Positions 42 through 28,046 of a stretch of 61,443 bases of DNA are shown here, piece after piece. A model generated the notes under the pieces. It was not told where the DNA came from. It did not search any database and saw only the letters and a program-made list of their open reading frames with translations. Location of the stretch: contig JAGONM010000011.1 of the NCBI GenBank assembly GCA_017993055.1, positions 1 through 61,443 on the forward strand. Direction: 5' to 3'. The position numbers were made by a program, and so were the translations under genes. Source of the DNA: Armatimonadota bacterium. Lineage in GTDB: Bacteria; Armatimonadota; UBA5829; DTJY01. The first letter of the stretch is position 1; each line of letters begins with the position of its first letter.

Positions 42-1097
42 GTGCCGGCTAATCCTTTTGTCGGCGTGTTTCTTCACGCTATCGGCGGCTTCGCCGCGGG
101 AAGCTTCTACATCCCGTTCAAGAAGGTGCGGAAGTGGGCGTGGGAGAGCTACTGGCTCGTCGGCGGCTTCTTCGCCTGGATCGTCGCGCCCTGGGTCGTA
201 TCGCTCATAGTCTGTCCGGACGTCATGAGCGTCCTCTCCGATGCCCCCGCTAACAGCCTCTTCTGGGCATTCACGTTCGGCGTGCTCTGGGGGATCGGCG
301 GCCTGACCTTCGGGCTCTCGATGCGCTACCTCGGAATGTCGCTCGGGTACGCGCTCGCCCTGGGGTTCTGCGCGGCCTTCGGGACGATCATCCCGCCGAT
401 ATTCAACGGGGAGTTTGGCGACCTGGCATCCAGGCTCTCCGGGCAGACGATACTCCTCGGGGTGCTGGTCTGCCTGGCTGGCATCACGATCTGCGGTAAG
501 GCCGGCGTCAGGAAGGAGAGCGAACTCACCGCCGATCAGAAACAGGCGGCGATCAGTGAGTTCAGCTTCAGGAAAGGGGTCTGGATCGCCATCTTCGCGG
601 GCGTTATGAGTGCCTGCATGGCCTTTGCTCTCCAGGCGGGCAAGCCGATTGCCGAACTCGCAGTGACGCATGGAACGGCCGACATCTGGAAGAACTCTCC
701 CGTATTCATCGTGGTCTTTGCCGGTGGGTTCATGACCAACTTCGTCTGGTGCGCGATCCTCAACTGCCGCAATCGCACGGCGGTCAACTACGTCAGGGGC
801 GACGGCGCATCGCTCGCATCGAACTACATCTTTTCGGCCCTGGCGGGGATCACGTGGTACTGCCAGTTCATGTTCTATGGCATGGGCACGACGCGCATGG
901 GGAAGTACGACTTCTCGAGTTGGACGATCCACATGGCGTTCATCATCGTCTTCAGCAACATGTGGGCGCTGATCTTCCGTGAATGGAAGGGAACGAGCCG
1001 CCGGACGCACAACATCGTCTTCGCGGGTATCATCGTGCTGATCGCGTCTACCATCGTGGTAGGATTCGGGAACTACCTGGGAGCCCTGAAGAGGTAG
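42..1097 (+). CDS. rhaT: RhaT-family L-rhamnose/proton symporter
   Basis: Predicted inner-membrane sugar/proton symporter that would import L-rhamnose or a related 6-deoxyhexose. The 351-residue product is close to the usual RhaT length and has about ten hydrophobic segments. Family-typical stretches are IGGFAAGSFYIPFKKVRKW near the N terminus and GLSMRYLGMSLGYALALGF around residue 90. The GTG start at 42 has AAGGGAGGT eight bases upstream. It opens a plus-strand gene run with an aldolase and a FucI-like isomerase, which supports a deoxysugar substrate. The exact sugar cannot be read from sequence. The promoter lies outside the window. Confidence 0.9.
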   Translation: MPANPFVGVFLHAIGGFAAGSFYIPFKKVRKWAWESYWLVGGFFAWIVAPWVVSLIVCPDVMSVLSDAPANSLFWAFTFGVLWGIGGLTFGLSMRYLGMSLGYALALGFCAAFGTIIPPIFNGEFGDLASRLSGQTILLGVLVCLAGITICGKAGVRKESELTADQKQAAISEFSFRKGVWIAIFAGVMSACMAFALQAGKPIAELAVTHGTADIWKNSPVFIVVFAGGFMTNFVWCAILNCRNRTAVNYVRGDGASLASNYIFSALAGITWYCQFMFYGMGTTRMGKYDFSSWTIHMAFIIVFSNMWALIFREWKGTSRRTHNIVFAGIIVLIASTIVVGFGNYLGALKR

Positions 1098-1126
1098 ACT
1101 CAGGTACCGATGGATGGAGGGCAGGA

Positions 1127-2062
1127 ATGGTTGAGGGAGCGACGAATGAACTGGCGCGGATAATGTCGGCGGCCGTGCGGAACGCGATCGCCATACCCGC
1201 GTTCAACATACCCTACCTGCCGATGCTCGAGCCGGTCGCTGCGTCACTCTTGGAGCACGATGCATTCGCGCTCATCGAGGTCGCGCGTCTCGAGTTCACG
1301 AAGTTCGAGGCGAAGAGCCCGGCCGCGGTCGCGGAGGAGTTCGGACGTCACGCCGACAGCCGCGTGACGCGCCTGCACCTCGACCATGTGCCGGTGATTG
1401 ACGAAGACGGCATGAGGGTAGACTGGAAGATGGTCATCTCTGAAGCGCTGGAACTCGGCTACGACTCCGTCATGATTGATGGATCGCGCCTCGCGCTCGA
1501 GGAGAATATCGCTGTCACGGCGGAAGTCGTAGGGATGGCCCATGCCGCCGGCGCGCTCGCGGAGGCAGAACTCGGATCGGTGCTCGGCCACGAGTCCGGT
1601 CCGATGCCGCCTTACGAGGAGCTCTTCGCGCGGAGGGCGGGTTTCACCCGTGTAGACGAAGCGCGGAGGTTCGTCGAGGAGACCGGCGTTGACTGGCTCT
1701 CGGTTTCGGTCGGTTCCGTCCACGGCGCGATCAGTCCGGCAGCAAAGAACCAGGACAAGGTGTGCGCGCGCCTCGACATCGAGCATCTGCGCAGAATCCA
1801 CGATGTCACGGGTATTCCGCTCGTTCTGCACGGCGGTTCGGGCATTCAGCACTCGTACATCGAGAAGGCGATTCGCAGCGGCATCGCGAAGATCAATATC
1901 GGGACGGACATCCGCCAACCCTATGAAAGGACGCTTGCCGAGACGGGTCGCTTCACCGATGCACAGGCGGCCGTCGCCGACAAGATCAAGTTCTTGATAT
2001 GCGATGTCTACCGCATCGAAGGTTCGGCATCGCAACTACATGCACTGAAAGGAAGTGTCTGA
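1127..2062 (+). CDS. class II (zinc) ketose-bisphosphate aldolase family protein
   Basis: Class II aldolase of the FbaA/GatY/KbaY superfamily, 311 residues, expected to split a ketose phosphate into dihydroxyacetone phosphate and an aldehyde in the cytoplasm. Visible signatures are IAIPAFNIPYLPMLEPV at the N terminus, the metal-site stretch LHLDHVPVIDEDG, GALAEAELGSVLG, and the phosphate-site motifs LHGGSG and INIGTDIRQPY. The ATG at 1127 follows GGAGGGCAGGA; an upstream in-frame extension is unrelated sequence. It lies between a RhaT-like importer and a FucI-like isomerase, so a deoxyketose phosphate is a reasonable substrate guess. No kinase to make that phosphate is in the window. Confidence 0.85.
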   Translation: MVEGATNELARIMSAAVRNAIAIPAFNIPYLPMLEPVAASLLEHDAFALIEVARLEFTKFEAKSPAAVAEEFGRHADSRVTRLHLDHVPVIDEDGMRVDWKMVISEALELGYDSVMIDGSRLALEENIAVTAEVVGMAHAAGALAEAELGSVLGHESGPMPPYEELFARRAGFTRVDEARRFVEETGVDWLSVSVGSVHGAISPAAKNQDKVCARLDIEHLRRIHDVTGIPLVLHGGSGIQHSYIEKAIRSGIAKINIGTDIRQPYERTLAETGRFTDAQAAVADKIKFLICDVYRIEGSASQLHALKGSV

Positions 2063-2063
2063 C

Positions 2064-3482
2064 ATGGCAGATTCACGAAAGTCGAGATTCGCTCTGTTCT
2101 TCGGCAACAGGGGTTTCTTCCCGGGTTCACTCATGGAGTCAGCGAGGGCCGAGGTTGATCAGCGGCTGAAGTCTTTGGGGCATGACACGCTCATGCTCGA
2201 CGCGGGTGCTACCCGTTTCGGCGCGGTCGAGACTCCGGCGGAGGGCGAGATCTACGCGAACTTCCTCAAGGCGAATCAGGGGAAGTACGACGGCGTCATT
2301 CTCTCCCTGCCGAACTTCGGCGACGAGACCGGCGCGGTCGCCGCTCTCAGGGATGCGGGCGTGCCTATACTCGTCCAGGCCTACCCTGACGACCTCGACA
2401 AGATGGCCCCTGCCACTCGGCGCGACTCGTTCTGCGGCAAGATGTCGGTCTGCGACGTCTTCTACCAGAGCGGGGTGCAATACACCATCCTCCCGCCGCA
2501 TACGGTAGCGCCTCAGAGCCCCGACTTCGCTGACAACGTTGACTACTTCGACAGGGTCTGTCGCATAGTGAGCGCCCTGAAGCGCATGAGGGTCGGAGCA
2601 ATCGGCGCGCGAACCAGCGCATTCAAGACCGTGCGCATTGACGAGCTTGCGCTCGAGCGTCACGGCATCACGATGGAGACCTTCGATCTGTCGGATGTCT
2701 TCAACCGCTTGAAAGACGTGTCGCCGGACGGCGCGCCGTTCAAGGACAAGAAGAACAGGCTGAGCGGCTACTCCAACTTCTCGCAGATTCCGGATGGCGC
2801 CTTTGACACGATAGTGAAGATGGGCGTCGTGCTGGACAGCATCGTGGAGGAGAGCAAGCTCGACGCCGTCGCCGTCCGGTGCTGGGTCGAGATGCAGCAG
2901 GTGCTCGGAATCTCCCCGTGCGTGCTCCTCAGCGAGATGAACGACAGGCTGATCAACGCCGCGTGCGAGGTTGATATCGGCAACGCGGTCTCGATGTATG
3001 CGCTCAGCAAGGCGTCGGGCAACGTCGCGGCGTGTCTCGACTGGAACAACAACTACGAGGACGACGAGGACAAGTGCATCCTCTTCCACTGCGGCCCGGT
3101 CCCTCAGTCCATGATGACCGCCAAGGGCAACGTGACCGATCACGGCATTCTGATGAACTCCGTCGGGGAGGGCTGCGGATACGGCTGCAACGTCGGGCGG
3201 ATCAAGCCGCAGTCGTTCACGTTCGCGAGCATGATGACGGAGGATGGGGAACTCAAGTTCTACGTCGGCGACGGCGAGTTCACTGATGATCCGATCCCCG
3301 CCGACTTCTTCGGATGCGCGGGTGTCGCCGAGATTGACGACCTTCAGGACGTACTGCTGTACGTCGCGCAGAACGGCCACAGGCATCACGTCAGCGTGAC
3401 GCCGGGTGTCGTGACCGACCCGATGGTCGAGGCTCTCGAGTACTACCTGGGCTACGATGTCGCCGTCCCTCAGGACATGTAG
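2064..3482 (+). CDS. L-fucose/L-arabinose isomerase-fold protein
   Basis: Cytoplasmic protein of 472 residues with the FucI/AraA isomerase fold, expected to interconvert an aldose and a ketose with a divalent metal. The C-terminal half carries the family pattern: CEVDIGNAVSMYAL (metal-binding Asp/Glu region), CLDWNNNYEDD, and FHCGPVP with a candidate metal-ligand His. The N-terminal half is a Rossmann-like domain. The start chosen is ATG 2064, eight bases after GGAAG and two bases after the aldolase stop; GTG 2055 in the same frame is possible. The order transporter, aldolase, isomerase suggests one deoxysugar pathway. Substrate is not determinable, and a non-isomerase role for this divergent branch cannot be excluded. 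Confidence 0.75.
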   Translation: MADSRKSRFALFFGNRGFFPGSLMESARAEVDQRLKSLGHDTLMLDAGATRFGAVETPAEGEIYANFLKANQGKYDGVILSLPNFGDETGAVAALRDAGVPILVQAYPDDLDKMAPATRRDSFCGKMSVCDVFYQSGVQYTILPPHTVAPQSPDFADNVDYFDRVCRIVSALKRMRVGAIGARTSAFKTVRIDELALERHGITMETFDLSDVFNRLKDVSPDGAPFKDKKNRLSGYSNFSQIPDGAFDTIVKMGVVLDSIVEESKLDAVAVRCWVEMQQVLGISPCVLLSEMNDRLINAACEVDIGNAVSMYALSKASGNVAACLDWNNNYEDDEDKCILFHCGPVPQSMMTAKGNVTDHGILMNSVGEGCGYGCNVGRIKPQSFTFASMMTEDGELKFYVGDGEFTDDPIPADFFGCAGVAEIDDLQDVLLYVAQNGHRHHVSVTPGVVTDPMVEALEYYLGYDVAVPQDM

Positions 3483-3488
3483 CGCCGT

Positions 3489-4640
3489 ATGATTACACCG
3501 CGTGAACGCCTGATCACGGCGCTGAACCATCAGGAGCCGGACCGAGTGCCGATTGACCTGGGCGGCAACCAGACCGGCATCCACAAGTTCGCGTATCAGA
3601 AGCTGCTCGACCACCTCGGCCTCCGGGAGGAGATCGAGATCATGGACCTCGTCCAGCAGCTTGCGAAGCCCTCCGAGGCTGTTCTGGAGCGGCTCCATGT
3701 GGACACGCGGTACGTATTCGCGGGCGGCGCGAAGAGCTTCAATGCCGAGGTCGTCAAGCGCGAGCGTGACGGGCGCAGCTGGAGCGACTTCACCGACGAG
3801 TTCGGCGTCACGTGGTCGATGCCGGATGACTTCCCGTATTACTTCGACATCTCCCACCATCCGCTTGCGGGCATGTCGCTGAGCGAGATCGAGGAGTATC
3901 CATTCCCCAAGGGCGACGACCCCACGCGGTTCGAGGGCCTGAGGGAGCGCGCGCTCGCATTGAAGCGTGATACCCCCTATGCCGTCATCAGCGGCATCTC
4001 CGGAGTCGTTTACGAGATCTGCTGGTACATGCGCGGGCTCGAAAGCCTGTTCATGGATATGCTCGATCACCCGGCGATCCTCGAGGCGATCATCGACCGC
4101 ACGCTGAAGTTCTGGCTCGACTGGTTCCGCGTCTTCCTCGATGAGGTCGGCGACGTGGTGGACGTGATCATGATCGGCGACGACCTGGCCGCGCAGACCG
4201 GCCCTCTCTTCCCGCCGAGGATCTACCGCTCGATCGTGAAGCCGCGTCACAAGATGCTCGTCCAGTACATCAAGTCCCGCACGAGCGCGAAGATCTGGTA
4301 TCACTCCTGCGGCTCGGTGGTGGAGTACATCCCCGACCTGCTCGACAACGGCATTGATATCCTGAACCCGGTGCAGATCAGCGCCGAGAACATGTCCCCC
4401 GCCGATCTGAAGTCGCGGTTCGGCGACCGGCTGACCTTCTGGGGCGGCGGGATAGATGCGCAGAGGATACTTCCGCACGCCTCGCCGGAGGTCATTCGCG
4501 AGGAGGTCCGACGGAACGTCCAGGCGTTCAAGCCCGGCGGCGGATACGTCTTCAACAACGTGCACAACATCCAGGCCGACATCCCGCCGGAGAGCACCCT
4601 CGCGCTCTTCGACGCGGCATACGAGTTTGGGGAGTATTGA
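3489..4640 (+). CDS. uroporphyrinogen decarboxylase (URO-D/MtaA)-fold protein, copy 1
   Basis: 383-residue TIM-barrel protein of the URO-D/methyltransferase (MtaA, MtbA) superfamily. It opens with the typical MITPRERLITALNHQEPDRVP. It is unlikely to be haem-pathway HemE: it sits in a sugar locus and carries a YHSCGSV motif like the zinc-binding HxCG of corrinoid methyltransferases. The second zinc Cys expected near the C terminus is replaced by FNNVHNIQADIPPES. The gene follows the isomerase by six bases, so it is co-transcribed. No corrinoid protein gene is nearby. Possible roles are methyl transfer from methylated sugars or an unknown lyase reaction; both are inference. Confidence 0.75.
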   Translation: MITPRERLITALNHQEPDRVPIDLGGNQTGIHKFAYQKLLDHLGLREEIEIMDLVQQLAKPSEAVLERLHVDTRYVFAGGAKSFNAEVVKRERDGRSWSDFTDEFGVTWSMPDDFPYYFDISHHPLAGMSLSEIEEYPFPKGDDPTRFEGLRERALALKRDTPYAVISGISGVVYEICWYMRGLESLFMDMLDHPAILEAIIDRTLKFWLDWFRVFLDEVGDVVDVIMIGDDLAAQTGPLFPPRIYRSIVKPRHKMLVQYIKSRTSAKIWYHSCGSVVEYIPDLLDNGIDILNPVQISAENMSPADLKSRFGDRLTFWGGGIDAQRILPHASPEVIREEVRRNVQAFKPGGGYVFNNVHNIQADIPPESTLALFDAAYEFGEY

Positions 4641-4643
4641 GTT

Positions 4644-4710
4644 GTAGGGGCGAAGCATTGGTCTTTGATGACGAAAGTGCTTCGATCGGTAGCCGATGCT
4701 TCGCCCCTAC
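4644..4710. repeat. long palindromic intergenic element (MITE-like hairpin)
   Basis: Two perfect 15-base inverted arms, GTAGGGGCGAAGCAT at 4644-4658 and ATGCTTCGCCCCTAC at 4696-4710, enclose a 37-base centre. Four more pairs at the inner end are possible with G-U wobbles, and an alternative internal arm (GTGCTTCG near 4678) also complements the left arm. It fills the gap between the first URO-D gene and the secreted lyase. I recall very similar GTAGGGGCGAAGCAT-bordered elements being dispersed in several bacterial groups, but could not check that here. Confidence 0.7.
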
Positions 4711-4739
4711 CCGACAGGCCATCTGAGGAGGAACGGACA

Positions 4740-6437
4740 TTGCGCAATCACATGCTGGTTCTGCTGGCGGTTCTCATGGCATTCGGCTGCTCGGCCTCAT
4801 TCGCGCAACTCTCGCAGGTCGATGTCAGGGATTACGGCGCTAAGGGCGATGCCGTAACAGACGACACAAAGGCTTTCACCGACGCGATGGCCGCCGTCGC
4901 CGAGAAGGGCGGAACGGTCTCGGTCCCGGTCGGCAACTATCTCATCAAGACGCACCTCAGCATTCCCTCGAAGGTCACGCTGGAGGGCATATGGAGTATC
5001 CCGACCGCTTGGACTCAGAATCAGGGGAGCACTCTGCTCGCGGTGGAGGGAGCGGGATCTGAGAACGGACCGGCGTTCATCACCCTCGGCCCCAACTCGA
5101 CCATGAAGGGTCTCACGGTCTTCTATCCCGACCAGAAGCCGGACGACATCACACCGTACCCCTGGTGCGTCGCCTGCGCGGGCGGTGACAACTCCTCGAT
5201 CATCGACTGCCTCCTCGTGAATCCCTATCAGGGCGTTGACTTCGGCTCGAAGGCGTCCGGGCGGCACTACATCCGCAACCTCTACGGTCAACCATTGAGG
5301 CGCGGCATCTTTGTTGATAAGTGCTATGACGTCGGCCGGATCGAGAACGTCCACTTCTGGCCGTTCTGGAAGTGGGACGAGCAATCGGGCATCCGCGACT
5401 GGCTCTGGAAGAACGGCGAGGCGATGATCTTCGCCCGGACCGACTGGGAGTACGTCTTCAACTTCTTCTGCTTCGGCTACGGGATCGGTATGCGTTTCAT
5501 CGCGGGGAAAGACGGCCCGACGAACGGCAACTTCCTCGGCTGCGGAGTTGACGCGGCGAACATCGCGGTGCTCGTCGAGCAGACCCAGGCGCCCGGGCTT
5601 CTCTTCACCAACGGGGAGTTCGTGAGTTTCGCAGGTGACAACCCGTGCGAGGTCGTGGTCAGAGGCTCCCACACCGGGGTCGTGCAGTTCTCGAACTGCT
5701 CCTACTGGGGCACTTCCGACCAGATAGCTCGAATCGCGGGTACGGGGCAGGTTACGTTCAACGCGTGCAACTTCCTCGGCTGGAATCGGAAGGACAACAA
5801 GACTGCGGCGATTGAGCTGTTTGGCGGCGATCTGATCGTGAACGCGTGCAACTTCCGCGGCCCCGGCCCTCAGGTCGCCCTCAGGGGCAGTGCGAAGTCC
5901 GCCATCGTCACCGGCAACCGGATGGGCGGGCCTCAGGCTATCACCAACCCGGTGAACGCGCAACTCGAGGCGGGCTTCAACGTCTTCGAGAAGGACCCCG
6001 ACCGCCCGCGTGAGGAGAAGGGTGCCATCGTCGTGGACGATACCGATCCCGGGGTGAAGTTCACCGGCGAGTGGCTCATCGCGAAGAACGGCGGCGATGT
6101 GCCGGTCGGCTACTACCTCGGCGCTCGATGGGCCTGGAAGGGCACAGGCGACTCCGTTGCGGTCTTCGCGCCGGACGTACGGGCTCCCGGAAGGTACGAG
6201 GTCTACGCCTGGTTCGGTTCCGACGCAGCGGGCGACCATGCTACCAGCGCACCTGTGACGGTGCAGTCCGGCGGCGAGAAGCTTACGATGCTCCTGAACC
6301 TTCGGAAGATGAAGGGCGAGTGGGTGAAACTCGGCACCTATCGCTTCGAGGCCGGCAGGAAGGGTACGATCACGTTCAGCAATGCCGCCGACGGGAACGT
6401 CCTCGCCGACGCGGTGAAACTCGTGCCGTCCGGTTAG
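4740..6437 (+). CDS. secreted pectate lyase-3/GH28-type beta-helix protein with golvesin-like C-terminal domain
   Basis: Exported carbohydrate-active protein of about 565 residues. After the signal peptide (MLVLLAVLMAFGCSASFAQ) comes the Pectate_lyase_3 signature VDVRDYGAKGDAVTDDTKAF, then a right-handed beta-helix to about residue 420. The last 150 residues (IVVDDTDPGVKFTGEW, then FSNAADGNVLADAVKLVP) resemble the golvesin/xanthan-lyase carbohydrate-binding domain. The TTG at 4740 was chosen because GAGGAGGA ends seven bases upstream; ATG 4752 is the alternative. Its place between two URO-D genes in a sugar locus suggests polysaccharide cleavage outside the cell. Lyase versus hydrolase cannot be decided. 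Confidence 0.8.
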   Translation: MRNHMLVLLAVLMAFGCSASFAQLSQVDVRDYGAKGDAVTDDTKAFTDAMAAVAEKGGTVSVPVGNYLIKTHLSIPSKVTLEGIWSIPTAWTQNQGSTLLAVEGAGSENGPAFITLGPNSTMKGLTVFYPDQKPDDITPYPWCVACAGGDNSSIIDCLLVNPYQGVDFGSKASGRHYIRNLYGQPLRRGIFVDKCYDVGRIENVHFWPFWKWDEQSGIRDWLWKNGEAMIFARTDWEYVFNFFCFGYGIGMRFIAGKDGPTNGNFLGCGVDAANIAVLVEQTQAPGLLFTNGEFVSFAGDNPCEVVVRGSHTGVVQFSNCSYWGTSDQIARIAGTGQVTFNACNFLGWNRKDNKTAAIELFGGDLIVNACNFRGPGPQVALRGSAKSAIVTGNRMGGPQAITNPVNAQLEAGFNVFEKDPDRPREEKGAIVVDDTDPGVKFTGEWLIAKNGGDVPVGYYLGARWAWKGTGDSVAVFAPDVRAPGRYEVYAWFGSDAAGDHATSAPVTVQSGGEKLTMLLNLRKMKGEWVKLGTYRFEAGRKGTITFSNAADGNVLADAVKLVPSG

Positions 6438-6510
6438 TCCACGCGGGCGGACTCTGAGCCTCTGCTGACACGAATCCATCCGCCTGGTGGTTGCGGCCGG
6501 AGATGTGAAC

Positions 6511-7917
6511 ATGGATATCGAAGATCTCTACCAGGAACGACTCGCGAGATACACCACCACGATGCGTAACGGGAAGCCGGATAAGGTCCCGATCCGGCCC
6601 TTCGTCGCCGAGTTCACCGCCAAGTACGCCGGATTCACCTGCCAGGAGGTCACGCACGACTTCAACAAGGCTTTCGCCGCCGCCCGCAGATGCGCCGCCG
6701 ATTTCGACTGGGATGCCGTCGTTGGCAACATGGTGTACGTCTGGACGGGCCTGACCCAGGCGCTGGGCCTGAGGTATTACGCCGTTCCGGGGGTTGACAT
6801 CCCGCCGAACACCGGCTTCCAGTACCGCGAGCCGGACGAGGAGCGTGCCTTCATGAAGGCGGACGAGTACGACGCCCTGATAGATGATCCGACGGCGTTT
6901 CTGTACAATGTGTGGCTTCCCAGGGTGTCGTCGGACGTGTCAGACAGGTCGGACGAGTCGGACAGATACCGGAGCAACCTAGCTCTCGTCAAGGGCGCGA
7001 TGGCCATGCTCCAGTACTTCAGCGCGTTCGGGCCGCAGGGTCAGGCCCTCCGGGAGGAGTCCGGCACGGTCGGAGCGATCGCGGGCATCCTCAAGGCGCC
7101 GTTCGACATCCTGGCGGACAAGCTGCGCGGCTACATCGGGCTTACCATGGATATGATGACCCAGCCGGACAAGGTGCTCAAGGCCTGCGAAGCGCTCATG
7201 CCGCATCTGTACCACCAGGCGCTGATCACCTCCGACCCCAGCGGCCAAGTGCCTGTAGGTCTCTGGATGCACCGCGGATGCGTGCCGTTCGTCTCGAAGG
7301 GTCAGTTCGAATCGCACTACTGGCCGACCCTGAAGCCGATCGTCGAGGAGCTCTGGGCGAACGGGCGTCAGACGCTCTTCTACGCGGAAGGCGACTGGGG
7401 GCATCACCTGGAGTCGTTCGCCGAGCTTCCCGACGCGAGCATCGTGTACCATGTGGACCGAGGCGACATCTCTGATGTCCACCACCGGCTCGGGCACAAG
7501 TTCTGTCTGAGCGGAGGGATCCCCAACTTCCTGCTCGCATACGGCACGCCCAACGAGGTCCGGGACTGTGCGAAGAGAGTGATTGATGGCGTCGCGCGGG
7601 ACGGCGGCTACATCATGGACGCGAGCGCGATCATGCAGAACGACACCTCCGTCGAGAACCTCCGCGCGCTGACCGACTTCACCAGGGAATACGGCGTCTA
7701 CTCCGCTGGCCATGCGTCCCATCAGTCCCACGGGTCCCATTCGTCCTGTCCCCTCTCCCAGGGCAGAGTGCCAGCCGGTGTCTGCATCCCGTGGGAGGAG
7801 AAGCGCCGGGAGCTTCCGGCGGAGATGCCCGGCGACGAGGAACTCGCGCGGCGCATCTGGGAAGAAGTGGACGGCCTCGGCAACATGTTCATCTGGCAAG
7901 TGCTGGAGTCGTTCTGA
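6511..7917 (+). CDS. uroporphyrinogen decarboxylase-fold protein, copy 2, with two in-frame nonamer repeat inserts
   Basis: Second URO-D-fold protein of the locus, 468 residues, about 85 longer than copy 1 and only distantly similar. The HxCG zinc motif is absent (the equivalent region reads YAEGDWGHHLESF), and the C-terminal segment is GGYIMDASAIMQND. The classical methyltransferase metal site is therefore missing. Two stretches are built from 9-bp repeats: SSDVSDRSDESDRY (DNA 6931-6966) and HASHQSHGSHSSC (7714-7757), both probably in surface loops. ATG 6511 has CGGAGA seven bases upstream. Function is unknown; context points to sugar catabolism. Confidence 0.7.
   Translation: MDIEDLYQERLARYTTTMRNGKPDKVPIRPFVAEFTAKYAGFTCQEVTHDFNKAFAAARRCAADFDWDAVVGNMVYVWTGLTQALGLRYYAVPGVDIPPNTGFQYREPDEERAFMKADEYDALIDDPTAFLYNVWLPRVSSDVSDRSDESDRYRSNLALVKGAMAMLQYFSAFGPQGQALREESGTVGAIAGILKAPFDILADKLRGYIGLTMDMMTQPDKVLKACEALMPHLYHQALITSDPSGQVPVGLWMHRGCVPFVSKGQFESHYWPTLKPIVEELWANGRQTLFYAEGDWGHHLESFAELPDASIVYHVDRGDISDVHHRLGHKFCLSGGIPNFLLAYGTPNEVRDCAKRVIDGVARDGGYIMDASAIMQNDTSVENLRALTDFTREYGVYSAGHASHQSHGSHSSCPLSQGRVPAGVCIPWEEKRRELPAEMPGDEELARRIWEEVDGLGNMFIWQVLESF
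6931..6966. repeat. degenerate 9-bp tandem repeat, family B (TCGGACNNG), inside a URO-D gene
   Basis: Four consecutive nonamers, TCGGACGTG, TCAGACAGG, TCGGACGAG and TCGGACAGA, encode a Ser-Asp-x repeat. The core GTCNGAC is itself palindromic. The same unit occurs in non-coding positions at 46848 and 50973. Confidence 0.75.
7714..7757. repeat. degenerate 9-bp tandem repeat, family A (GGTCCCATN), inside a URO-D gene
   Basis: Nonamers CGTCCCATC, AGTCCCACG, GGTCCCATT and CGTCCTGTC follow each other and are read in frame as a His-x-Ser triplet repeat near the C terminus of the protein. The same unit family lies between genes at 10919, 20417, 46160 and 56488. Confidence 0.75.
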
Positions 7918-7924
7918 GTTCGGT

Positions 7925-7945
7925 GTTGATGGTTGAGGGTTGAGC
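7925..7945. repeat. three heptamer repeats (GTTGAGG type)
   Basis: GTTGATG, GTTGAGG and GTTGAGC lie head to tail in the short gap between the second URO-D gene and the next start codon, just upstream of ATG 7948. Confidence 0.55.
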
Positions 7946-7947
7946 GA

Positions 7948-9945
7948 ATGATGAGCAGACACGCGGTTTTCGCACTCATACTGATCCTGGCGGCGGGTCG
8001 GGCGGTCGGGCAGGCGAAGGTCAACCGGTTCATGATCGAACGGGTCGCTTCCGGCAAGGCGCAGATCGCCGTCGCGTCGTGGTGGGGGTTCGATTCGGAG
8101 GACTCCACCGAGGCCTTACAGACGGCGATTGACTCGGGCGCAAGAAAGGTGATCGTGGACGACGTCCGCAAGCCCTGGATCGTCCGGCCGATCACCCTTA
8201 GGAGCGACCAGGAGATCATCTTCCGCAGGGGCGTTGAGGTAGTCGCAAAACGGGGCGAGTTCAAGGGCGCGACCGATGCTCTCTTTCGCGCCGACAACGA
8301 GAGCAACATCACGCTTAACGGCTATGGCGCCGTCCTGCGGATGCACCGCGCCGACTACGCGGCTCCACCGTACGAAGATGCCGAATGGCGGCACGTGCTG
8401 AGCCTCAAGAGCTGTTCTAACGTGAGGGTTTACGGTCTTGCGCTGGTGGACGGCGGCGGCGACGGAATCTACCTTGGCGTGGCCACTCGCGGTGTCACCA
8501 ACTCGAATGTCCACATCAGGGATGTCGTCTGCGATCGGAACTACCGGCAGGGGATCAGCGTGATCAGCGCCGACAGATTGCTCATCGAGAATACCGTCAT
8601 GCGGGACACGGGCGGGACGCCCCCCCAGGCCGGCATTGACTTCGAACCGAACCGTCCGGACGAACGCCTGTCGAACATCGTGATGCGAAACTGCACCGCG
8701 GAGTTCAACCGGGGTGACGGCCACGAGTTTTACTTCATGCATCTCGACGCGTCTTCCGCGCCGGTTTCCATGCGGTTCGAGAACTGCAGGTCGCTTGGCG
8801 ACGGTCAACAGGCTGTGCGGATCGTGACGGGCAACACTCCCGCATCGGCCGTGAAGGGAAGAATCGAGTTCGCGGACTGCGCGTTCGCCGACAGCGTGAA
8901 CGGCGGCATTCTGATCTCGAACTTGCCCGTCGGGGGCTGCAGGGTCGTCTTCTCCCGATGCGCGCTCGCAAACCCCGCCGTCGAGAAACCGACGGTTGCG
9001 CCCATACTCTTCCAGAGCCGCCAGGATGCGAGTGAGCCGATCGGCGGCGTCGAGTTCGACAACCTTCTGCTCAGCGACCCCGTACTGCGCAACCCGATCG
9101 GTTACGCTGACGGGGGAGGCGGCATTCCCGTGCGGGCCGTGACCGGCGTCATCAACCTCCAGCGCGGCGGCAAGCGGCAGACTATCGAGCTCACGCCTGA
9201 GAAGCTGATCGAGTGGATTCCTGCCTCCGCCATCAAGCAGATTCCGCGTCTGAGCCTCGAAGGCCTGTCCCTGAAGCCGCAAATACTCGACGCCGACCCG
9301 GACGCGTATGCCTTCGGTTTCGCGCGGATGAGGCGTGAGGGCCGCCTCGTGCTCTATGCCAGAGAAGGCGACGCCGTAAGCATCAGACTTGCGCATGATG
9401 CGGTCGGCAAACTGGCCGGCAGCGCCATACAGGTCCGTATCACCGATCCTTCCAGCGTCTCGATCGATGCTCCCGCCGTCCCTTTCCGGGGCGAGTGTGA
9501 GGTTTCGTTCACAGCGCCGGAGACCGGCGTCTACAGAGTAGTCGCCGATCCGGGCGGGAACTCCGTTCGGGTCGTCGCCAGTTCGCATCCAGTCAACATC
9601 GTTGGCGAGGGCCGACCGGTTCGCCTGATATACTCTGCGGGCGACTACTTCTTTCGGGTGCCGGCGGGCGTCCGGGAGTTCGGTGTCCGCGTCTGCGGCG
9701 AAGGGACCGGTGAGGCGATCCGGGCAGTGCTCATCAACCCCGACGGTCGGGTCGTGCAGGAAGTGGACAACGCCGTCCAGACGCACCAGTTCGAAGTGGC
9801 GCTCCCGGCCGCGAGCAGAGGCGAGATCTGGATGCTCCGCCTTGCGAAGCCATCCGCGATGGCGTGGGAAGACCACTCGATTGACCTGCGCGGCATCCCG
9901 CCCCTGCTCGCGCCTTCCCCGGAGGCTCTGCTTGTCAACAAATGA
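7948..9945 (+). CDS. secreted right-handed beta-helix protein
   Basis: 665-residue exported protein. A signal peptide (MMSRHAVFALILILAAGRAVGQ) is followed by a parallel beta-helix, recognisable from recurring short Asn/Gly-rich turns such as NITLNGYGAVLRM, NVRVYGLALVDGGGDGIYLG and DVVCDRNYRQGISVISADR, which resemble Pectate_lyase_3/Beta_helix domains. From about residue 430 onward the sequence changes to beta-sandwich-like segments (TAPETGVYRVVADPGG). ATG 7948 is preferred; ATG 7951 and TTG 7933 share the frame. It probably binds or cleaves a polysaccharide together with the protein encoded at 4740-6437. Catalytic residues could not be assigned. Confidence 0.7.
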   Translation: MMSRHAVFALILILAAGRAVGQAKVNRFMIERVASGKAQIAVASWWGFDSEDSTEALQTAIDSGARKVIVDDVRKPWIVRPITLRSDQEIIFRRGVEVVAKRGEFKGATDALFRADNESNITLNGYGAVLRMHRADYAAPPYEDAEWRHVLSLKSCSNVRVYGLALVDGGGDGIYLGVATRGVTNSNVHIRDVVCDRNYRQGISVISADRLLIENTVMRDTGGTPPQAGIDFEPNRPDERLSNIVMRNCTAEFNRGDGHEFYFMHLDASSAPVSMRFENCRSLGDGQQAVRIVTGNTPASAVKGRIEFADCAFADSVNGGILISNLPVGGCRVVFSRCALANPAVEKPTVAPILFQSRQDASEPIGGVEFDNLLLSDPVLRNPIGYADGGGGIPVRAVTGVINLQRGGKRQTIELTPEKLIEWIPASAIKQIPRLSLEGLSLKPQILDADPDAYAFGFARMRREGRLVLYAREGDAVSIRLAHDAVGKLAGSAIQVRITDPSSVSIDAPAVPFRGECEVSFTAPETGVYRVVADPGGNSVRVVASSHPVNIVGEGRPVRLIYSAGDYFFRVPAGVREFGVRVCGEGTGEAIRAVLINPDGRVVQEVDNAVQTHQFEVALPAASRGEIWMLRLAKPSAMAWEDHSIDLRGIPPLLAPSPEALLVNK

Positions 9946-9963
9946 GATGGAGGAACAAGAAGC

Positions 9964-10917
9964 ATGAGGACAATCAGGTACGCTTTGGTTATCTTGTTCG
10001 CACTGGCCGTGATGCTGGCTTCGGGATGCTCCAGGCAGTCTCCCCCGCAGTCCTCGGGCAAGCCGAAGATAGCCCTCGTGATGAAATCGCTCGCCAACGA
10101 GTTCTTCAAGACGATGGCCGATGGGGCTCAGGCGCACCAGAAGGCCCACGCGTCGAAGTACGATCTGATCGTCAATGGCATAAAGGACGAACTGGACGTC
10201 AACAAGCAGGTCGAACTAGTGGAGCAGATGATCGCCCAGGGAGTCGATGCCGTCATCATCGCGCCTGCCGATTCCAAGGCGTTGGTTGCCGTCTGCAAGA
10301 AGGCGTCCGACTCCGGGATCATCGTCGTGAACATTGACAACAAGTTCGACTCGGATGCCCTCAAGGAAGCGGGACTCACCGCGCCGTTCGTGGGCCCGGA
10401 CAACCGCAAGGGCGCAGAGCTCGTCGGCGATGAGCTGGCGAAGCACCTCAAGGCGGGCGACAAGGTCGCGATCCTGGAGGGCGCGCCGAATGCGTTCAAC
10501 GGCGAGCAGCGAAAGCTCGGCTTCGAGGATGCGATGAAGGCTGCAGAGATCGAGATCGCGGCGTCACAGAGCGGCTACTGGGAAACTGATAGAGCCAACC
10601 GGATCGCCCGCGACATCATCACCGCCAACCCCGAGGTCAAGGCGCTACTCTGTGCGAACGACAGCATGGCGATCGGGGCGGTCAAGGCGGTCGAGGAGTC
10701 CGGCAAGTCAGGCAAGATCCTGGTCGTCGGTTACGACAACATCAGCGCGGTTCAGCAGTTGCTCAAGGAAGGCAAGATTCTGGCGACGGCAGACCAGCAT
10801 GCAGACCAGCTCGCGGTGTTCGGTATCGAGTACGCGCTGGAGATGATCGACAGGAAGGCGGCGCCTCGGGACAAGGAGACCCCCGTCGATCTGGTCAGCG
10901 CGGAGTCTCTGAAGTAG
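9964..10917 (+). CDS. ribose-type ABC transporter solute-binding lipoprotein
   Basis: 317-residue periplasmic-binding protein of the RbsB/Peripla_BP_4 family, predicted to bind a sugar at the cell surface or in the periplasm. The N terminus ends in a lipobox, LASGC with Cys22. Family patterns follow: KIALVMKSLANEFFKTMADG, QGVDAVIIAPADSKAL, NIDNKFD, ANDSMAIGAVKAVEESG and LVVGYDNISAV. The start ATG 9964 follows GATGGAGGAACAAGAAGC. The permease gene is next, but no ATP-binding subunit gene is present in the window, so a complete transporter needs a partner encoded elsewhere. Confidence 0.9.
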   Translation: MRTIRYALVILFALAVMLASGCSRQSPPQSSGKPKIALVMKSLANEFFKTMADGAQAHQKAHASKYDLIVNGIKDELDVNKQVELVEQMIAQGVDAVIIAPADSKALVAVCKKASDSGIIVVNIDNKFDSDALKEAGLTAPFVGPDNRKGAELVGDELAKHLKAGDKVAILEGAPNAFNGEQRKLGFEDAMKAAEIEIAASQSGYWETDRANRIARDIITANPEVKALLCANDSMAIGAVKAVEESGKSGKILVVGYDNISAVQQLLKEGKILATADQHADQLAVFGIEYALEMIDRKAAPRDKETPVDLVSAESLK

Positions 10918-10918
10918 C

Positions 10919-10950
10919 ATCGGTCCCGTGGAACGCATAGGACCTATGAA
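10919..10950. repeat. 9-bp tandem repeat, family A, at a gene junction
   Basis: CGGTCCCGT, GGAACGCAT, AGGACCTAT form a run of period 9 between the binding-protein stop and the permease start. The ATG at 10946 lies inside the repeat, which makes the ribosome-binding site hard to identify. Confidence 0.5.
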
Positions 10951-11917
10951 CAAAGACAGGCACAACATCAAATGGCTGACCGATGTCATCGGTATGGGCG
11001 CGGTGCTGATCGCGCTCATAGCCTTCTTCGGTGTAGAGTGCGACAACTTCCTGACGCCGACCAATTTCCTCGCGATCGCGAACCAGATTCCGGCGGCGAT
11101 ACTCATCGCGGTCGGCATGACGCTGGTGCTCATCACCGGGGGGATTGACCTCTCCGTCGGGTCGGTAGTCGGCCTGTCGGGAGCGCTGCTCGGTCTATGC
11201 CTCGACAAGTTCGGCCTGCCACTGGTGATCTCGATCCCTGCGTGCCTGGCGGTCGGGTCGCTCTGCGGGCTGATCAACGGGCTGGTGATCGTGCGATGGT
11301 CACTGCCGCCGTTTATCGTCACGCTTGGCATGCTGGAGGCCGCGAGAGGCGCGACCTTCCTGCTGACTGAGTCCCGCACGATATACCTCGGCAACAAGAT
11401 CGGCGGCATGTCGTCAATGGGAGTCGGCAATCTCTCTTCGCTCTTCATCATGGCGGTCGTTGCGGTGGCATTCGGACAGCTTCTGCTCAACAAGAGTGCG
11501 TTCGGAAGGCACATCGTGGCGCTAGGATCGAACGAGCAGACGGCCTACCTCTCCGGTATCAACACTGGGAAGGCCAAGGTCGCGGTCTATGCGCTGTCCG
11601 GCCTGCTCTGCGCGCTGGCAGCGGTCGTCATCACCGCGCGGATGGCGTCTGCGAATCCGAACGCCGGCAGCGGGTTCGAACTGGAGGCGATCGCGGCCGT
11701 CGTCATCGGCGGGACGAGCCTGATGGGCGGTCGCGGGTCGGTAGTAAACTCGTTCTTCGGCGTCGTGATCATCGCCCTGCTCGGCAGCGGTCTCGCACAG
11801 ATGGGTACCGAGGAGGCCACGAAGCGGATGATCACCGGAGTGGTCATAGTCCTCGCGGTGATCCTGGACTACTATCGGACGCGAATCGTGGCTCGACGGT
11901 CCGATGCGGGGATGTAG
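10946..11917 (+). CDS. ribose-type ABC transporter permease (RbsC-like)
   Basis: Inner-membrane permease of the BPD_transp_2 family, about 323 residues with eight to ten hydrophobic segments. The diagnostic stretch GMTLVLITGGIDLSVGSVVG is present, as are IVTLGMLEAARGATFL and EAIAAVVIGGTSLMGGRGS. It should form the channel for the sugar delivered by the preceding lipoprotein. The start is uncertain: ATG 10946 and GTG 10928 are in frame and neither has a good Shine-Dalgarno, because the junction consists of a 9-bp repeat. The missing ATPase (RbsA type, usually between these two genes) is notable. Confidence 0.88.
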   Translation: MNKDRHNIKWLTDVIGMGAVLIALIAFFGVECDNFLTPTNFLAIANQIPAAILIAVGMTLVLITGGIDLSVGSVVGLSGALLGLCLDKFGLPLVISIPACLAVGSLCGLINGLVIVRWSLPPFIVTLGMLEAARGATFLLTESRTIYLGNKIGGMSSMGVGNLSSLFIMAVVAVAFGQLLLNKSAFGRHIVALGSNEQTAYLSGINTGKAKVAVYALSGLLCALAAVVITARMASANPNAGSGFELEAIAAVVIGGTSLMGGRGSVVNSFFGVVIIALLGSGLAQMGTEEATKRMITGVVIVLAVILDYYRTRIVARRSDAGM

Positions 11918-11945
11918 ACACGGCGGCATTGGTTGGTGATATACT
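11915..11945 (+). promoter_or_regulatory. candidate extended -10 promoter for the sulfatase pair
   Basis: TAGACA (11915-11920) and TATACT (11940-11945) with a TG one base before the -10. The spacer of 19 bases is long, but the TGn extension compensates. It lies just before the first sulfatase gene, which starts at 11968. Confidence 0.4.
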
Positions 11946-11967
11946 GTGAGAGTGGAGGACCTGAGAC

Positions 11968-13323
11968 ATGATGAACGGTAGAATGAGCAGGAGGGAGTTC
12001 ATCGCGCTTGCCGGGATGGGCGCAGCCGCGATGTCCGTGCCCGTGCCCGGTCTCTTCGCCGCCGATCGGCGCAAGCCGAACGTGATCGTCATCTTGTCCG
12101 ATGACCACGGCTACGGCGCGATAGGCTGCCAGGGGTGCAGGGACATCCCCACGCCGAACATCGATTCCATCGCCAAGAAAGGTGTCCGATGCACCAACGG
12201 GTACGTCACCTGCCCCGTGTGCAGTCCGACACGGGCCGGCCTCAATACCGGTCGATATCAGCAGTGCTTTGGGCATGAGGACAACCCCGGGCCGCCGAAT
12301 GTCTGTGCCCCGAACTTCGGACTGCCGCTCGACGAGAAGACGACGGCCGACTACATGAAGGCCCAGGGCTACGCGACCGGCATGGTCGGGAAGTGGCATC
12401 TCGGCCACAAGCCGGAGTGCAATCCGACCAAACGCGGGTTCGACGAGTTCTTCGGGTTCCTTACCGGCGCACACTCGTATACGAACCCGGGCGTCGGAAC
12501 TGCCGAGCCGATCCTGCGCGGCACCGAGGAGGTTGACGAGAAGGAGTACCTGACCGACGCCTTCGGGCGCGAGGCGATCTCATTCATCGATCGGCACAAG
12601 GAGAAACCTTTCTTCCTGTACTTGGCATTCAACGCCGTGCACGCTCCGCTGCAGGCGGCCAAGAGATATGAGGACGAGTTCACCCAGTTCAAGAATCCCG
12701 ACAAGCGCAAGTACGCGGCGATGCTGACGGCGATGGACGAGCAGATCGGCAGGGTGCTGGCCAAGGTGCGCGAGGCCGGGCTCGAAAAGGACACGCTGAT
12801 CTTCTTCCTGGGCGACAACGGCGGTTACCGACTGGCGGGTTTCGCACCCAATGCGCCGCTCAGCGGCTTTAAGGGCGACACCTTCGAAGGCGGAGTACGC
12901 ATCCCGTTCATCGTCCAGTGGAAGGGCAAACTCCCCGCAGGGAAGACCTACGACAAGCCGGTGATCTCGCTCGATGTTCTTCCGACGGCCGTGACGGTCG
13001 CCGGTGGGAAGCCCGGCGCGAACGTAGACGGAGTGAACATCCTTCCGTTCCTGAAGGGCGAGAAGAAGGGCGTCCCGCACGACAGGCTCTTCTGGCGCTG
13101 GATCGACAAGTACGGCGCGCGTGTCGGCGACTGGAAGCTCGTCCAGAACGGCGACGGCAAGGAACTGCTCTTTAACCTCGCCGATGATATCGGCGAGACG
13201 ACAGACCTGTCGGCTGCCAACCCTGACAAGCTGAAACAGCTGAAGGCCGCCTATAAAGACTGGGACACGAAGAACATCCCGCCCAAGTGGCTGGACGGCC
13301 GCAGGAAGCTCAAGGCGCAGTAG
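11968..13323 (+). CDS. Tat-exported sulfatase 1 (type I, CxPxR)
   Basis: Arylsulfatase-family hydrolase of 451 residues, expected to remove sulfate esters from a polysaccharide outside the cytoplasm. The N terminus has the twin-arginine motif SRREFIALAG and an alanine-rich export region. The metal-binding start KPNVIVILSDDHGYG is typical, and the formylglycine motif is C85-S-P-T-R89 followed by AGLNTGR. Further conserved pieces are GKWHLGHK and GDNGG. Cys85 would need a maturase, which is not in the window. The gene is 54 bases upstream of a paralogue; both probably act on related sulfate positions. Confidence 0.93.
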   Translation: MMNGRMSRREFIALAGMGAAAMSVPVPGLFAADRRKPNVIVILSDDHGYGAIGCQGCRDIPTPNIDSIAKKGVRCTNGYVTCPVCSPTRAGLNTGRYQQCFGHEDNPGPPNVCAPNFGLPLDEKTTADYMKAQGYATGMVGKWHLGHKPECNPTKRGFDEFFGFLTGAHSYTNPGVGTAEPILRGTEEVDEKEYLTDAFGREAISFIDRHKEKPFFLYLAFNAVHAPLQAAKRYEDEFTQFKNPDKRKYAAMLTAMDEQIGRVLAKVREAGLEKDTLIFFLGDNGGYRLAGFAPNAPLSGFKGDTFEGGVRIPFIVQWKGKLPAGKTYDKPVISLDVLPTAVTVAGGKPGANVDGVNILPFLKGEKKGVPHDRLFWRWIDKYGARVGDWKLVQNGDGKELLFNLADDIGETTDLSAANPDKLKQLKAAYKDWDTKNIPPKWLDGRRKLKAQ

Positions 13324-13377
13324 AATTTCGCGGCCCATAGCGCCCATTTATCTCGTTGTTCTCGCAGGAGTGAGCAC

Positions 13378-14736
13378 ATGACCAACACCTACACCAGACG
13401 CGACTTCATCCGGTTCGCAGGGATGAGCGCCGCCGCGACGGCTCTTCCGCTGCCGGATCTCTTCGCTGCCGACTACATCAAGCCGAACGTGATCGTCATT
13501 CTCGCCGATGACCAGGGTTTCGCGGATGTGAGCGTCCACGGATGCAAGGACAGCCCCACGCCGAACATAGACTCGATCGCCAAGAACGGCGTCCGCTTCA
13601 CGGACGGCTACACGAGTTGCCCGGTATGCAGCCCGATGCGCGCCGGACTCCTGACCGGCCGCTACCAGCAGCGGTTCGGCTTCTACCACAATCCGCCCAG
13701 CGATCTGGACCGGACGAACTGGGGGCTTCCACTCGACCAGAAGACGTTCGCACAATACATGAAGGCCGAGGGATACGCGACCGGCGCAATCGGCAAGTGG
13801 CATCTCGGCGACAACGAACCGTTCCACCCGAACAAGCGCGGGTTCGACGAGTTTTTCGGCTTCATCGGGGGCGCCCACAACTACCTGCAGCCCGAGAGCG
13901 GGTCGTTCAACGCGGTCCAGCGGAACGGCAAGCCCGTGGACGAGAAGCTCTACCTCACCTATGCGTTCGGGCGGGAGGCGGTGTCGTTCATCGAGAAGAA
14001 CAAGGAGAAGCCGTTCTTCCTCTACCTGGCGTTCAACGCGCCTCACAGCCCGCTACAGGCGGCTCCAAGGGACGACAAGGCATTCCCCGAGATCAAGGAC
14101 GAAAGGCGGCGTACGTTCGCGAAGATGCAGTTGGCTATGGATAACGTCGTCGGCGATGTCCTGGCAAAGGTCCGTGAGGAGCAGCTGGAAGACGATACGC
14201 TCATCATCTACATGTCGGACAACGGCGGCCCGACTCCGGGCAACACGTCGCGCAATGACCCGTTCAAGGGCTTCAAGACGCAGGTCCACGAGGGCGGCAT
14301 CCGCGTGCCGTTCATGATGCAGTGGAAGGGCAAGATCCCCGCCGGCAAGACATACTCCAAGCCTGTGATTTCGCTCGACATCCTGCCGACCGCGGTCGCC
14401 GCATCGGGAGGCAAGGTCGCCGACAACCTCGACGGCGTGAATCTCCTTCCGTACCTGAAGGGTGATGATCCAGGCGCTCCGCATGAGTCGCTGTGTTGGC
14501 TCTTCGACAAGCAGTCTGCGGTTCGCAAGGGCGAATGGAAGCTCTCCCGGCACGAGGAGCACGGCATGAGGCTGCACAACCTGGCGAACGATCCCGGCGA
14601 GAAGAACGACCTTGCGAGTGAAGATGCCGACAAGGTCAGCGAACTCCTGGCGGCCTGGGACAAGTGGAACGCGAAGAACGTCAAGCCGCTCTGGCCGAGC
14701 AGGACAGACGCGCCCTGGACCGACACGGACTGGTAG
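13378..14736 (+). CDS. Tat-exported sulfatase 2 (type I, CxPxR)
   Basis: Paralogue of the preceding sulfatase, 452 residues, with twin-arginine motif TRRDFIRFAG, metal-site stretch KPNVIVILADDQGFAD, formylglycine motif C84-S-P-M-R88 plus AGLLTGR, GKWHLGDN and SDNGG. ATG 13378 follows GCAGGAGTGAGCAC. Similarity to sulfatase 1 runs along the whole length, so the pair likely arose by tandem duplication; which sulfate ester each removes is unknown. It ends the plus-strand sugar locus; the next gene (lepA) converges on it. Confidence 0.93.
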   Translation: MTNTYTRRDFIRFAGMSAAATALPLPDLFAADYIKPNVIVILADDQGFADVSVHGCKDSPTPNIDSIAKNGVRFTDGYTSCPVCSPMRAGLLTGRYQQRFGFYHNPPSDLDRTNWGLPLDQKTFAQYMKAEGYATGAIGKWHLGDNEPFHPNKRGFDEFFGFIGGAHNYLQPESGSFNAVQRNGKPVDEKLYLTYAFGREAVSFIEKNKEKPFFLYLAFNAPHSPLQAAPRDDKAFPEIKDERRRTFAKMQLAMDNVVGDVLAKVREEQLEDDTLIIYMSDNGGPTPGNTSRNDPFKGFKTQVHEGGIRVPFMMQWKGKIPAGKTYSKPVISLDILPTAVAASGGKVADNLDGVNLLPYLKGDDPGAPHESLCWLFDKQSAVRKGEWKLSRHEEHGMRLHNLANDPGEKNDLASEDADKVSELLAAWDKWNAKNVKPLWPSRTDAPWTDTDW

Positions 14737-18959: not shown

Positions 18960-19001
18960 CGAATCAGGCCTCCTGACATCCTCAGTACCGCGCGCCTCGT
19001 C

Positions 19002-19031
19002 TTGACACCCCGGCGCGCGCATCACTATAAT
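19002..19031 (+). promoter_or_regulatory. consensus sigma-70 promoter of the phosphomannomutase-serS-cdsA operon
   Basis: Perfect TTGACA at 19002-19007 and perfect TATAAT at 19026-19031 with an 18-base spacer. Transcription would start near 19038, about 30 bases before the GTG start at 19070. Confidence 0.85.
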
Positions 19032-27984: not shown

Positions 27985-28017
27985 GCGCGTATGTGCCTCC
28001 TGAGATGCTCTGTTCGC

Positions 28018-28046
28018 ATTATACACGCCGCGCGCGGTTATTTCGA
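28018..28046 (-). promoter_or_regulatory. possible promoter of the DUF4091 gene
   Basis: On the minus strand TATAAT is perfect (28023-28018); the -35 at 17 bases is TCGAAA, four of six matches. Confidence 0.4.

Follow-up and report, generated by a model that had tools for sequence, protein, structure and literature searches.

Three kinds of system are among the closest described counterparts to the genes analysed here. In the L-fucose pathway the isomerase FucI, the kinase FucK and the aldolase FucA act in turn, and the same logic recurs in the sulfo-EMP2 (sulfo-Embden-Meyerhof-Parnas) pathway, where SqvD, SqiK and SqiA process sulfoquinovose (PMC9594981). Another is corrinoid-dependent methyl transfer, exemplified by CdmB, the chloromethane:corrinoid methyltransferase of Acetobacterium, which functions without zinc and whose relatives are O-demethylases (PMC13222342). 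Here we compare these systems with eleven genes at positions 42-14736 of a 61,443-nucleotide stretch of DNA (the window; contig JAGONM010000011.1, assembly GCA_017993055.1) from an Armatimonadota bacterium.

We read these genes, with a probability of roughly 0.6, as a truncated utilisation operon for a sulfated 6-deoxyhexose glycan of the L-fucose or L-rhamnose type. The glycan is perhaps O-methylated as well, demethylation being the less certain part of this reading. The main interest of the locus lies in its core of isomerase and aldolase, which in relatives forms a recurrent trio with a kinase, and in a possible corrinoid demethylation step. All eleven genes lie on the plus strand, with intergenic gaps ranging from a small overlap up to 54 bp. 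This arrangement and the families assigned to the genes had been proposed in a preliminary description made from the sequence alone, and profile searches of the encoded proteins agree with it for every gene. They include two proteins of the uroporphyrinogen decarboxylase (URO-D) fold, parts of an ATP-binding cassette (ABC) importer and two sulfatases of the twin-arginine translocation (Tat) type, both with an RR-type N-terminus and a C-S-P-x-R motif:

42-1097, plus strand: RhaT-type sugar:proton symporter (PF06379, 251 bits; NCBIfam NF010024 (RhaT), 497 bits, cut-off 468)
1127-2062, plus strand: class II (PF01116) ketose-phosphate aldolase (202 bits)
2055-3482, plus strand: predicted AraA/FucI-fold aldose-ketose isomerase (PF02952, Fucose_iso_C, 57 bits)
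3489-4640, plus strand: URO-D 1, of the HxCG group (PF01208, 80 bits; HSCG at residue 272)
4665-6437, plus strand: secreted right-handed beta-helix protein 1 with a Golvesin_C domain (PF12708, Pect-lyase_RHGA_epim, 50 bits; PF25275, 92 bits)
6487-7917, plus strand: URO-D 2, CdmB-like candidate corrinoid methyltransferase (PF01208, 67 bits)
7933-9945, plus strand: secreted beta-helix protein 2 (PF13229, Beta_helix, 29 bits)
9964-10917, plus strand: sugar ABC binding lipoprotein (PF13407, Peripla_BP_4, 198 bits)
10928-11917, plus strand: sugar ABC permease, RbsC type (PF02653, BPD_transp_2, 153 bits)
11968-13323, plus strand: Tat-type secreted sulfatase 1 (PF00884, 210 bits; CSPTR motif; RREF N-terminus)
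13378-14736, plus strand: Tat-type secreted sulfatase 2 (PF00884, 225 bits; weak TAT_signal match; CSPMR motif)

The aldolase more likely starts at the ATG at 1127 than at 983, which overlaps RhaT, and beta-helix protein 1 may start at an alternative ATG at 4752. The gene that follows sulfatase 2 is lepA in convergent orientation, so that 14736 is a natural end of the locus. Its other end is artificial. The window runs from base 1 of this contig (C11 of an 82-contig assembly) and RhaT starts only 41 bp from the contig edge, so that any genes upstream of it are out of view; the first 32 bases of the contig match no other part of the assembly. The locus had been described as distinctive in lacking SusC/D, a sugar kinase and an ABC ATPase. 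The first point stands, since a search confined to the locus found no SusC/SusD pair among the genes at 42-14736, which sets it apart from polysaccharide utilisation loci of the SusC/D type. The absence of kinase and ATPase is, because of the contig edge, not usable as a feature.

The evidence for the catabolic core comes from a scan of named genomes, which returned 52 loci carrying the isomerase. Orthologues of the isomerase and the PF01116 aldolase stand side by side in 19 of them, and 17 combine both with an FGGY kinase; a further eight pair the isomerase with the kinase only and two with the aldolase only. These counts are lower bounds, since many contigs are truncated. By submitter label, the trio spans six phyla: Armatimonadota, Bacteroidota, Chloroflexota, Hydrogenedentota, Myxococcota and Spirochaetota. 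In about 20 loci, aldolases 51-72 % identical to that of the window adjoin the same isomerase. Isomerase and kinase distances are strongly correlated (Spearman 0.73, permutation p 0.001, 17 loci) and isomerase and aldolase distances weakly so (Spearman 0.29, p 0.04, 20 loci), both correlations partly reflecting shared descent. The combination of families, once taken as matching no recognised locus, is thus in part a recurrent, widespread and uncharacterised sugar-cleaving set, and it is only for the eleven-gene order as a whole that no parallel was found. An FGGY kinase orthologue is missing from this assembly, where the best match reaches 29 % identity, though only 41 bp separate the first gene from the contig edge; the nearest relative (G004) carries a kinase orthologue beside its aldolase orthologue, on another contig than its isomerase. 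By analogy with their family mates, these proteins imply a route of isomerase, 1-kinase and class II aldolase for a hexose or deoxyhexose.

The isomerase is remote from characterised enzymes in sequence. Neither as a single query nor as a 35-member profile does it significantly match any PDB sequence, FucI included. Its AlphaFold model (predicted local distance difference test score, pLDDT, 92) aligns in Foldseek with AraA at a template modelling (TM) score of about 0.8 and with FucI at about 0.77, at 12-14 % identity. Residues E305, D329, H345 and H445 are invariant across 35 relatives. We take them, by spacing and not by superposition, to be equivalent to E337/D361/H528 of FucI and E306/E333/H350/H450 of AraA; the Glu-to-Asp spacing of 24 is presumably that of Escherichia coli FucI. 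Modelled fold and putative metal ligands together place the protein in the AraA/FucI superfamily.

The only NCBIfam match of the isomerase is the sulfoquinovose isomerase SftI (NF048012), which brings in the possibility that the locus degrades sulfoquinovose, a sulfonated glucose, by a route akin to sulfo-EMP2 with an SqvD-type isomerase, a kinase and an SqiA-type aldolase. That pathway does employ a PF02952 isomerase and a PF01116 aldolase (PMC9594981). However, the match scores 92.5 bits against a cut-off of 700, which leaves the protein outside the SqvD/SftI family, and the kinase of its relatives is of the FGGY type whereas SqiK belongs to PF00365. With neither SqvB nor a sulfoquinovosidase at the locus, and with sulfatases that target sulfate esters and not C-sulfonates, we consider a sulfoquinovose pathway highly improbable.

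Further isomerase relatives were noted. A second FucI-like isomerase, 31-32 % identical to that of the window, is encoded elsewhere in this genome (G000; C28:11090-12811) and has relatives in G002-G004; in G000, G003 and G004 it is followed by a member of a conserved 590-residue family. Recoding of two in-frame TAG codons was considered for these FucI-like paralogues in G002 and G003, and was rejected because in G003 the TAGs just precede the start codon. In four Bacteroidota loci (L119, L120, L122, L125) distant relatives (39-40 % identity) are accompanied by a sugar ABC system and by transketolase halves, and in L120 by an FGGY kinase as well, so that a related isomerase is there associated with a different cleavage chemistry.

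What sugar the route serves has to be read from the other genes. The aldolase is of the FbaA/KbaY type (PF01116) and not FucA/RhaD (PF00596); no aldolase of the latter type, canonical for L-fucose and L-rhamnose, occurs at the locus, to which the PF00596 search was confined. Against the PDB it gives 33 matches, the top few within a few bits of each other, and therefore permits no substrate call. RhaT has a score exceeding its NCBIfam cut-off (497 against 468 bits), and relatives of other locus genes keep company with deoxysugar enzymes and sulfatases. The N-terminal 410 residues of beta-helix protein 2 are 52-56 % identical to proteins in four genomes of the same class; in three of three neighbourhoods read (G002, G014, G015) a sulfatase directly follows the orthologue, and in G002 a glycoside hydrolase family 29 (GH29) alpha-L-fucosidase precedes it. 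A GH78 alpha-L-rhamnosidase flanks the trio in a Bacteroidota locus (L105). In Hydrogenedentota, a Tat-type sulfatase, a symporter, the aldolase and the isomerase run in one direction (L075). The genome as a whole has 38 sulfatase matches in 3.7 Mb. Judged from these sequence neighbourhoods, a sulfated glycan of the L-fucose or L-rhamnose type is favoured, with no choice between the two. The sulfated deoxysugar polymer first suggested therefore remains the best substrate class, while ulvan, rhamnan and fucan, named as its candidates, are indistinguishable from present data.

The pair of isomerase and aldolase could instead serve another sugar, such as a pentose, D-arabinose or another hexose; the run would then be a composite, with the sulfatase and beta-helix genes as unrelated neighbours. 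The isomerase fold is equally AraA-like, the binding protein is nearest to allose and ribose types, and the sub-modules are separable in relatives. We nevertheless think this rather unlikely, given the tight one-strand spacing of the genes, a RhaT above its cut-off and, in L075, a sulfatase beside the aldolase-isomerase pair.

The two URO-D proteins, treated alike in the preliminary description, both belong to the family but are not equivalent. PF01208 has 38 matches in this 3.7 Mb genome, and the HxCG motif is present in roughly half of the paralogues extracted and checked. URO-D 1 bears the motif, groups with a large set of these paralogues and shares 41 % identity with a URO-D protein adjoining the same trio in a Chloroflexi locus (L098). 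URO-D 2 lacks HxCG and stands apart from every other paralogue in the comparison. Its only PDB sequence match is CdmB (9rui, E 1.3e-33), which relates it to a characterised first methyltransferase (MTI) of a corrinoid system. An AlphaFold model of URO-D 2, built from only four sequences, had a pLDDT of 50 and was not used for fold search. Orthologues occur in G004 (79 % identity), where the gene adjoins a GxGYxYP-type protein and a sulfatase, and in G008 (69 %). A spirochaete locus (L107) encodes, on one strand, ABC genes, aldolase, isomerase and kinase followed by a corrinoid protein, a URO-D protein and the activator RACo; this URO-D protein is 31 % identical to URO-D 2 and also matches CdmB. 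In the Armatimonadota genome a single PF02607 corrinoid protein, closest in the PDB to 1y80, adjoins RACo on contig C16 (L163:9587-12121), and a 269-residue PF00809 protein adjoins MetF. Candidates for the partner corrinoid protein, the activator and the second methyltransferase (MTII) are thus all in the genome, on other contigs than the locus, and may serve methionine synthesis.

From these sequence relations we tentatively propose, as a possibility with somewhat less than even odds, that URO-D 2 is a corrinoid-dependent MTI that removes O-methyl groups from sugar, which would reach folate by way of the one corrinoid protein of the genome. The wider proposal is more doubtful still: in an anaerobic polysaccharide-utilisation operon, a methylated 6-deoxysugar would first be O-demethylated by a CdmB-type methyltransferase and would then enter the uncharacterised route of isomerase, FGGY kinase and PF01116 aldolase.

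Several observations weigh against the glycan operon and its demethylation step. The complete eleven-gene order was found nowhere else. A search for the gene order in other genomes, suggested as a check, recovered three sub-modules, and because the modules also occur apart in relatives the locus looks like an assembly of modules. In most loci neither RhaT, the beta-helix proteins nor the two sulfatases accompany the trio, and in none of the other loci read does a relative of RhaT lie close to the trio. In G004 the isomerase sits apart from both the aldolase-kinase pair and URO-D 2, and no glycoside hydrolase is encoded within 42-14736. URO-D 2 and CdmB share about 25-30 % identity, from which a substrate is not readable. 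Finally, the corrinoid protein and RACo are encoded among housekeeping genes, in a run with homologues of metK, def and fmt, and the genome, with its one PF02607 match, yields no full-length MetH, so that both proteins may serve a split methionine synthase.

That last point opens an alternative for the URO-D proteins, one that leaves the sugar interpretation of the remaining genes intact: a split methionine synthase would be made up of the corrinoid protein, RACo, MetF and the PF00809 protein, and URO-D 1 and URO-D 2 would carry out some other reaction with no methyl transfer in sugar use. The URO-D matches, about 38, are also too many for all of them plausibly to supply methyl groups to a single corrinoid protein. 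The corrinoid protein, however, matches 1y80 and the corrinoid proteins of methylamine systems with far better scores than MetH, URO-D 2 is the sole member of its group among the URO-D proteins compared, and in L107 a URO-D protein of its type stands with RACo and a corrinoid protein next to the trio. We regard the split synthase as a serious contender, though somewhat less likely than not.

For the sulfated 6-deoxyhexose glycan we envisage the following route. Secreted sulfatases and beta-helix proteins would, by their families, remove sulfate from the glycan and cut it on the outer side of the cytoplasmic membrane. Sugars would then enter through RhaT and an RbsABC-type importer whose ATPase is not in view. 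The conserved gene sets suggest that the FucI-like isomerase would form a ketose, that an FGGY kinase, missing here and placed beside the pair in relatives, would convert it to the ketose-1-phosphate, and that the PF01116 aldolase would split this into dihydroxyacetone phosphate (DHAP) and, if the sugar is 6-deoxy, lactaldehyde. URO-D 2, acting as MTI, might strip O-methyl groups from the sugar, the methyl passing to the corrinoid protein and then to folate. URO-D 1 has no committed role in this scheme.

As to the importer, the best NCBIfam similarities of the binding protein are to those for allose and ribose, though under the respective cut-offs. No ABC ATPase is encoded within the locus, whose contig edge lies 41 bp upstream of RhaT. 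Of five RbsA-like ATPase matches elsewhere in the genome, three come with a binding protein and a permease of their own, and the remaining two look like parts of other kinds of transporter; it is possible that the ATPase is shared or lost. In L098 a binding protein, ATPase and permease lie on one strand with two URO-D proteins, two isomerases, the aldolase and the kinase.

Among the proteins scanned beyond 14904, most are housekeeping, and none of the others is joined to the locus: a DUF4838 protein adjoining lepA (16728-19025, minus strand), a GH123 protein (26251-28026, minus strand; 277 bits) and a CBM96 protein (36378-39296, minus strand). In G004 another DUF4838 protein, 26 % identical to that of the window, directly follows the isomerase orthologue.

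The trio recurs in bacteria, mostly uncultured, of six phyla or more, and naming its sugar would give a function to a frequent catabolic route that so far carries no annotation. If URO-D 2 is a methylated-sugar O-demethylase, the question of how bacteria deal with O-methyl groups of glycans without oxygen would have an answer open to testing, namely a corrinoid-based counterpart to the demethylation that uses oxygen on methylated algal sugars. It would also be a starting point for explaining the numerous other URO-D paralogues. A literature search, with many subscription papers outside its coverage, found no paper describing the trio route or sugar demethylation of the URO-D 2 type; likewise, nothing relevant was found on URO-D proteins with sulfatases or sugars, or on corrinoid sugar demethylation.

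Set against known systems, the locus shares with the L-fucose pathway an isomerase of predicted FucI/AraA fold with putative Glu/Asp/His metal ligands, the FGGY kinase of its relatives and the logic of a ketose-1-phosphate aldolase. Unlike that pathway, its isomerase has no significant sequence match to FucI in the PDB, its aldolase is not of the FucA family and its own kinase is not found. With sulfo-EMP2 (PMC9594981) it has in common the isomerase and aldolase families and a logic that yields DHAP, but it differs in an isomerase far under the SftI cut-off, in an FGGY kinase among relatives, in the presence of sulfatases and in the lack of SqvB and YihQ. URO-D 2 resembles the CdmB/MtoB/MtvB group in its match to CdmB, itself zinc-independent (PMC13222342), and in lacking HxCG, whereas its corrinoid protein and MTII would be encoded outside the locus and its setting is a sugar operon, not an acetogen methyl cluster. 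As far as their published description goes, sulfatase-rich anaerobes such as Pontiella (PMC7356697) are alike in their many genomic sulfatases, 38 here, and in Tat-type secreted sulfatases within a sugar locus; at the level of that description, the present locus differs from their sulfated-glycan loci in having URO-D proteins and a core of isomerase and PF01116 aldolase.

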